A stretch of 64,000 nt of DNA from Acidobacteriota bacterium (GTDB lineage: Bacteria; Acidobacteriota; Vicinamibacteria; Vicinamibacterales; CAVVIG01), in contig QHWB01000049.1 in assembly GCA_003222395.1 (NCBI GenBank), positions 5,232 through 69,231 of the forward strand, written 5' to 3'. A model generated the notes under the pieces. The model worked only from the letters and a program-made list of their open reading frames with translations, ran no database searches and was not told the DNA's origin. The translations under genes were made by a program, and so were the position numbers. Positions 42,933-43,703 of this stretch are shown here, piece after piece. Position 1 is the stretch's first letter. Every line of letters begins with the position of its first letter.

Positions 42933-43043
42933 GGGGCCCCTTTCTGGGCCGCCAATCGCGGGCCTGAAAGGCCCGCGCCACCTGTCACGCTGTAGCGCGA
43001 GCCTTTTGGCTGTAGCGCGAGCCTTTTAGGCGAGCGAATCTAT
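42933..43043. repeat. Palindromic and short direct repeats
   Basis: A hairpin GCGGGCCTGAAAGGCCCGC at about 42958-42977 is followed by two near-identical copies of TGTAGCGCGAGCCTTTT. A related hairpin GCAGGCCTAAAGGCCTGC is at 44209-44226 and a similar sequence near 50945. These look like extragenic palindromic elements and do not read as a gene. Confidence 0.7.
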
Positions 43044-43637
43044 ATGGATCAAATGTATCTCCCCGAAATCGAACAGCACGCTGGCAGCGGACCGTGGGCC
43101 GACGCCGTCCGCCAGATGCGGGAAGCCGGCCAGCCGGTACCGCAGATCATGCATCTCTTCGCGTACAAGACGGATCGCACCGAGCACCTCGCGCGCTTCA
43201 CGCAGGGAGTGATGCGCGGACCGTCGCCGCTGCCGCCGGGGATCCGCGAGCTGATTGCGGCGTTCACGTCGCGCCGCAACGACTGTCCGTTTTGAATCGG
43301 CTCTCACGCCGCGGTCGCGGCGGAGCTCGTCGGCGACAGGCCGATGGTCGACGCGGTGCTCGATGACTACCGCACGGCGCCGATTGACGATCGGCACAAG
43401 GCGCTCTTCGCGTTCATCGAGAAGATGAACGCGCAGTCGAATCTGATTCGCCGCGATGATGTCGATTGCCTGAAGGCCGCCGGCTGGACCGAAGAGGCGA
43501 TCTACGATGCGATTACCGTCTGCGCGCTGTTCAAGTTCTACAACGCGTGGATCGACGCCACCGGCGTCCACGATCTGCCCGCCGGCGCGTACGTGATGAG
43601 CGGCAAGCGGATGGCCGCGCAGGGGTATGTTCGGTGA
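43044..43637 (+). CDS. Probable selenoprotein: AhpD/carboxymuconolactone decarboxylase-type peroxidase
   Basis: One frame runs from ATG 43044 to TGA 43637, interrupted only by TGA at 43293-43295. Around it the protein reads RRNDCPF-U-IGSHAAVAAEL. In the AhpD fold this is the active site CxxC...H, where the second Cys is peroxidatic and a His follows four residues later; here that Cys is replaced by UGA. Upstream and downstream segments (IMHLFAYKTDRTEHLARF, HKALFAFIEKMNAQSNLIRR, GWTEEAIYDAITVCALFKFYNA) are typical of peroxidase-related CMD proteins and show no decay. A hairpin 11 bases behind the UGA supports selenocysteine insertion. The alternative is a nonsense mutation. The product would reduce peroxides in the cytosol. 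Confidence 0.85.
43296..43325 (+). promoter_or_regulatory. Candidate bacterial SECIS hairpin
   Basis: Directly after the in-frame UGA, CGCCGC (43307-43312) pairs with GCGGCG (43317-43322) around a GGTC loop (43313-43316). The loop starts 17 bases after the UGA. A short GC stem with a GGU-type apical loop at this distance is what SelB recognises in bacterial selenoprotein mRNAs. Confidence 0.7.
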
Positions 43638-43703
43638 TCGGGTGATCGGGTAATCGGGTGATCGGGTAATTGGGTAATTGGATAATTGGATAATTGGATA
43701 ATT
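43634..43703. repeat. Simple tandem repeat of GATCGGGTAAT type
   Basis: Alternating GATCGGGTGATCGGGTAAT units drift into repeated GGATAATT units over about 65 bases. The low-complexity block lies between the selenoprotein stop and a palindromic repeat. Confidence 0.85.

Follow-up and report, generated by a model that had tools for sequence, protein, structure and literature searches.

The window, a stretch of 64,000 nucleotides from an Acidobacteriota genome, carries at 43044-43637 on its forward strand a gene that, judged from its reading frame, its profile matches and its full-length relatives, very probably encodes an AhpD/CMD-fold selenoprotein of 197 aa. The frame runs through 197 codons to a terminal TGA (43635-43637), and its sole internal stop is the TGA at 43293-43295, codon 84, in the context RRNDCPFU-IGSHAAVAAE, exactly the single frame broken only by UGA that the initial annotation had described. 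At this codon, the second active-site Cys of a CxxC motif would be replaced by selenocysteine (C81-P-F-U84), with His88 downstream. The codons of the putative catalytic core, E-x11-C-xx-U-xxx-H, lie at 43248-43250 (Glu69), 43284-43286 (TGT for Cys81, the partner of Sec84), 43293-43295 (UGA84) and 43305-43307 (CAC for His88), all on the forward strand; the UGA does stand, as had been proposed, within CPFU, at the column of the second Cys of the AhpD/CMD core, with the His four residues on. A candidate SECIS hairpin follows at 43307-43322 of the same strand.

The standard ORF listing splits this frame into pieces of 83 aa (43044-43295) and 97 aa (43344-43637), the cut in two that had been foreseen for automatic gene calls. 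The NCBIfam model TIGR01926 ("peroxidase-related enzyme") gives 95 bits on the read-through protein against a cut-off of 81.8, but no match on the front half and 59.1 bits, below the cut-off, on the back half, and Pfam CMD (36.5 bits, cut-off 23) is matched only by the read-through protein. Since both matches need read-through, the frame goes beyond what chance would give. The genome of the window (7.74 Mb, 118 contigs, 99.3% complete, 3.0% contamination) has four CMD places, and only the one at 43044-43637 contains a stop, the TGA.

The genes around it, between 39393 and 49688 of the window, belong by Pfam to a Sortilin/Vps10-BNR propeller protein, DUF4440, a DoxX-like protein, a 2-hydroxyacid dehydrogenase, an arylamine N-acetyltransferase-type protein, a MacB/FtsX permease and, on the opposite strand, a PadR regulator. 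When ORFs within at most 3 kb of 22 relatives and of the window gene were clustered, no conserved operon partner was found: the largest clusters comprised four loci, the neighbours of the window gene were in none of the clusters of three or more loci listed, and several clusters were overlapping antisense frames. Just before the gene, at 42989-43027, lie two copies of a 20-base unit, GCTGTAGCGCGAGCCTTTTG, preceded by an inverted repeat, GGGCCTGAAAGGCCC, and from the stop codon on, an 8-base tandem array (43633-43703) drifts from GGTGATCG to GGGTAATT.

Codon 84 in relatives

Relatives were collected from 396 genomes of the phylum, of which 103 gave matches at E<=1e-10, and by a separate scan of genome contigs with six peptide patterns, which yielded 22 loci (L050-L071); none of these patterns requires TGA, and the one spanning codon 84 specifies Cys there. 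Among loci whose alignment covers this codon, 52 were read; L004 and L020, which are the window gene itself, are excluded from the counts. The codon is TGA in 32 (L021-L029, L039 and all 22 loci of the contig scan), TGC or TGT in 20 (L002, L030-L038 and L040-L049) and TAA or TAG in none. The TGA loci are 49-82% identical to the window protein, except for L039 (35%), and all 32 keep Cys81 and His88; two of them, L021 from a genome of the window's order and L055 from a record labelled Acidobacteriota, have an identical gene sequence. The alignment to CMD proteins proposed in the initial annotation thus has a Sec codon or Cys in this column.

Behind the UGA, the sequence is maintained as protein. 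Against eight relatives, dN/dS (Nei-Gojobori, with several dS values near saturation) is 0.11-0.26 over codons 1-83 and 0.12-0.31 over codons 85-180, and the latter range indicates that the stretch downstream is kept under selection. The good preservation noted initially on both sides of the UGA is therefore borne out as purifying selection of similar strength before and after it. Instead of another residue and a decayed downstream sequence, against which the initial annotation had warned, close homologues have retained the UGA or, within a nested side branch, have Cys, and the downstream part is well preserved.

These observations bear on the simplest alternative, that a nonsense TGA, acquired by decay or by sequencing error, interrupts an ordinary Cys-type CMD gene and has a hairpin behind it by chance. 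The window gene has one internal stop only, and its hairpin lies within the range of synonymous recodings (see below), both of which would be compatible with such an accident. However, TGA recurs in 32 relatives' loci while TAA and TAG never occur at codon 84, selection is alike on the two sides, the hairpin is tied to UGA across homologues, and the genome has the full Sec machinery, so that we regard a pseudogene or an error as extremely improbable.

A second sample consisted of 40 CMD loci picked for a listed stop inside the match, which was TGA in 39 and TAA only in one. All 39 TGA loci have TGA at the codon-84 column (L078 duplicates L039), and 29 of them have a CHYU or CFYU motif. The locus with TAA (L107) was considered as a counter-example and set aside, as its residues at columns 84 and 81 are Cys and Thr, respectively, and the TAA falls close to where the alignment ends. 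A double-Sec motif, UxxU, was suspected from matches with two TGA codons and was likewise rejected, since in the six such loci read (L098-L103) the TGA of the motif is only at codon 84; where the second TGA falls within the aligned part, it is at column 177 or 180 (L101 and L102). L079-L117, from other genomes of the phylum, make up a more distant AhpD/CMD set, mostly with CHYU or CFYU, that is found in many genomes and has a different hairpin-like word behind the UGA, for example ACGGGGAGGATCTCCGT.

The hairpin behind the UGA and the selenocysteine machinery

The candidate SECIS element is composed of the stem strands CGCCGC (43307-43312) and GCGGCG (43317-43322) enclosing the loop GGTC, or GGUC in RNA (43313-43316). 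The stem begins 11 bases and the loop 17 bases after the UGA, and the small apical loop containing G is of the type expected of bacterial SECIS elements. UGA84 would be decoded by SelB and Sec-tRNA(Sec) under the direction of this GGUC-loop hairpin 17 bases behind it.

Taken alone, the hairpin is unremarkable: the stretch is GC-rich and codes largely for Ala and Val, and when the window gene was recoded synonymously 300 times, 45.7% of the versions had a stem at least as long, and none of 31 UGA rows has a stem length at p<=0.05 against its recodings. Folding energy relative to recodings has a mean z of -1.08 in the UGA rows (extremes -2.01 and +0.87) versus -0.11 in the 20 Cys rows. Because the lone hairpin is within chance, the SECIS assignment rests on conservation across homologues. 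When each set of sequences without differences in the region compared was taken as one, as was also done for the recodings, all six stem pairs were present in 25 of 31 distinct UGA sequences versus none of 20 Cys sequences, and five of the six in the other 6 of 31 (one mismatch in the assumed register) versus 1 of 20. At least five pairs are therefore kept in 31/31 UGA and 1/20 Cys sequences (Fisher p 4e-13, uncorrected for kinship). Compensatory changes, on both sides of a pair, are seen in L022, L025 and L026, and the four nearest Cys homologues (L030-L033) keep three or four stem pairs. Synonymous conservation agrees with this: among 90 columns of four-fold or higher degeneracy, codons 89, 91 and 90 hold ranks 1-3 and codons 92-93 are within the top 8 (counting a tie), and codons 89-93 make up nearly all of the hairpin stem and loop. 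The initial argument from the hairpin thus stands as to position (11 and 17 bases) but has little weight as an argument from a single sequence, and becomes strong only with the homologues. A scan of the genome for TGA-N8..14-GCNGCGGTCGCNGC returned three places, one of which is the window gene, versus one for the reversed control.

The genome also possesses the enzymes and the tRNA for this decoding. SelA (contig C64, 542 bits), SelB (contig C14, 314 bits) and SelD (contig C26, 344 bits, with one in-frame TGA) are each over the cut-off, and a tRNA-Sec with the anticodon tca is on contig C55 (62.5 bits); a second place over the tRNA-Sec cut-off was discarded as a tRNA-Ser by ARAGORN. The search for selA, selB, selC and selD, proposed initially because a lack of selB or selC would speak against the Sec reading, thus found each of them. 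The in-frame TGA of SelD (L075, on contig C26 of genome G000) belongs to a CAGU motif and is followed by a hairpin-like stretch, and on this account SelD itself appears from its sequence to be a selenoprotein.

Read-through of the UGA as another residue, through a genome-wide code change or through insertion of Trp or Cys, would satisfy the frame, which by itself requires only that the UGA be read through. Against this, the window gene itself ends in TGA, tRNA-Sec, SelA, SelB and SelD are encoded in the genome, homologues have Cys at column 84, and a conserved hairpin would be unexpected; the chance that the residue is other than Sec is accordingly judged to be minute.

Machinery was further compared in 30 relatives from the 103 matching genomes, 29 represented by loci L021-L049 plus G139. 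selA and selB are both over the cut-off in all 10 genomes in which the best match has UGA versus 3 of 20 in which it has Cys, the codon of 19 Cys genomes being taken from the main reading and that of G139 being read separately. The 17 Cys genomes without selA and selB are all from a single family, f19; kinship therefore exaggerates this contrast, and the Cys genomes do not amount to 20 independent events. The one UGA genome tested in that family, G023, has UGA together with both selA and selB. In each of the three Cys genomes that have selA and selB (G086, G368 and G334), a further AhpD/CMD gene carries TGA in the codon-84 column (L121, L122 and L113). In G086, the Cys form (L030) stands beside selA, selB and the UGA-bearing AhpD gene (L121), a case of Sec-to-Cys change without loss of the machinery.

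Predicted fold and putative activity

The AlphaFold model is all-helical (pLDDT 96.5, pTM 0.92). Its top fold matches in the PDB are the AhpD-like "peroxidase-related" structures 2pfx, 6k40, 3c1l and 2prr (query TM 0.73-0.79), followed by 2oyo and then by other AhpD/CMD proteins. The debrominase Bmp8 and Sestrin2 are weak matches, and M. tuberculosis AhpD structures match poorly (1gu9 and 1lw1, TM 0.39-0.48). The first five structures, which are matched by sequence as well, share the fold with the window protein (TM 0.72-0.79) but are Cys-type, with Cys for Sec, and are 23-28% identical to it in the fold alignments; in the alignments of 2pfx and 6k40, Cys is at both motif columns. Across 38 aligned sequences, the columns of Glu69, Cys81, Cys/Sec84 and His88 do not vary. 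The predicted fold and the alignment together give an AhpD fold with an E-x11-C-xx-C/U-xxx-H core, and the window protein is predicted to be an AhpD/CMD-fold oxidoreductase of the TIGR01926 "peroxidase-related" subfamily.

By analogy with AhpD, whose chemistry we presume to apply here, Sec84 would attack a hydroperoxide or other oxidant and Cys81 would resolve it as a selenenylsulfide. Glu69 and His88 would relay protons, and a cellular dithiol would re-reduce the Sec84/Cys81 pair. We infer from the sequence that Sec is incorporated at residue 84, and the substrate and the reductant are proposed by that analogy. A peroxidase function, by analogy, is fairly likely. A genuine UGA-Sec protein may instead catalyse some other reaction of redox partners or electrophiles, such as a reductive dehalogenation or the reduction of disulfides. 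The functions of CMD families are diverse, the AhpD fold includes non-peroxidases (the debrominase Bmp8 shares it, as a weak match), three of the five proteins matched by sequence in the PDB bear the name "uncharacterized peroxidase-related protein", and no conserved neighbour gene gives a hint. The spacing of E-x11-C-xx-U-xxx-H, however, fits the M. tuberculosis AhpD core, which we take to be E118, C130, C133 and H137, and its four columns are the invariant ones, so that a non-peroxidase activity seems rather unlikely.

Known AhpD-like selenoproteins and spread of the family

AhpD-like selenoproteins are already known, as the initial annotation had rightly assumed, and the gene at 43044-43637 adds another member. 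A 2026 review lists an AhpD-like CxxU selenoprotein family under TIGR01926 (PMC13188914), a 2022 review lists such a family with COG2128 (PMC9312934), and both name additional selenoprotein families of the AhpD or CMD type. The Sargasso Sea set contains an AhpD-like selenoprotein for which a SECIS element is predicted (PMC1088965). AhpD-like families are also listed in PMC1794560, which gives four selenoproteins of three families for Acidobacteria, and three known selenoprotein genes are counted in one Acidobacteriota genome (PMC12013277). The CxxU family, as described in the reviews, shares with the window gene the TIGR01926 subfamily, CxxU and a G in the small-loop hairpin behind the UGA but differs in host lineage. 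AhpD_rel_CFYUT (NF041238), an alkylhydroperoxidase-related (seleno)protein, has a related CMD core and is given as CxxU in the table of the 2026 or 2022 review; it is a model of 357 positions, whereas the window protein has 197 aa with CPFU and reaches only 31.6 bits against a cut-off of 175. In the partially covered literature searched, no paper title concerned this particular AhpD selenoprotein clade, and for the phylum the papers searched gave only selenoprotein counts. What the window adds is a well-supported selenoprotein gene that routine gene calling would split; knowledge of selenocysteine insertion is left unchanged.

In a midpoint-rooted tree of 51 rows (without L069 and L071, which are cut short where their contigs end), L030-L033, which have Cys, branch from within the Sec forms (100/95 and 99/95 at the forks), and Sec to Cys is therefore the likely direction of change in the clade, as judged from these sequences; the placement of long-branch rows such as L039 is unsure. 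As Sec and Cys forms occur side by side, and as G086 has a Cys form together with selA and selB, the family is reasonably suited to studying what makes a lineage retain Sec or give it up. Records of the clade are labelled Acidobacteriota, Gemmatimonadota, Myxococcota, Planctomycetota and Bacteroidota; among the 22 loci of the contig scan, the labels are Gemmatimonadota (10), Acidobacteriota (6), "Deltaproteobacteria" (3) and Bacteroidetes, Gemmataceae and Archangium (1 each). The gene was found at E<=1e-10 in none of six sampled genomes of the window's own family, which fits transfer or frequent loss.

Tentatively, these relatives may represent a distinct, mostly CPFU-type AhpD selenoprotein clade spread across several phyla, in which Sec is ancestral, with a replacement by Cys in a single side branch, and in which the SECIS 16-mer (CGCCGCGGUCGCGGCG) is almost frozen. 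If so, this would suggest that a shared element, strictly recognized by SelB, travels together with the gene, and Acidobacteriota would be unusually rich in undescribed AhpD selenoproteins. The 16-mer CGCCGCGGUCGCGGCG recurs in AhpD paralogues that are only ~34-35% identical (L039 and L083). Of 199 genomes of the phylum, 9 have a match to NF041238 that passes the cut-off, with one TGA inside each match, and the best match of the window's genome is below it.
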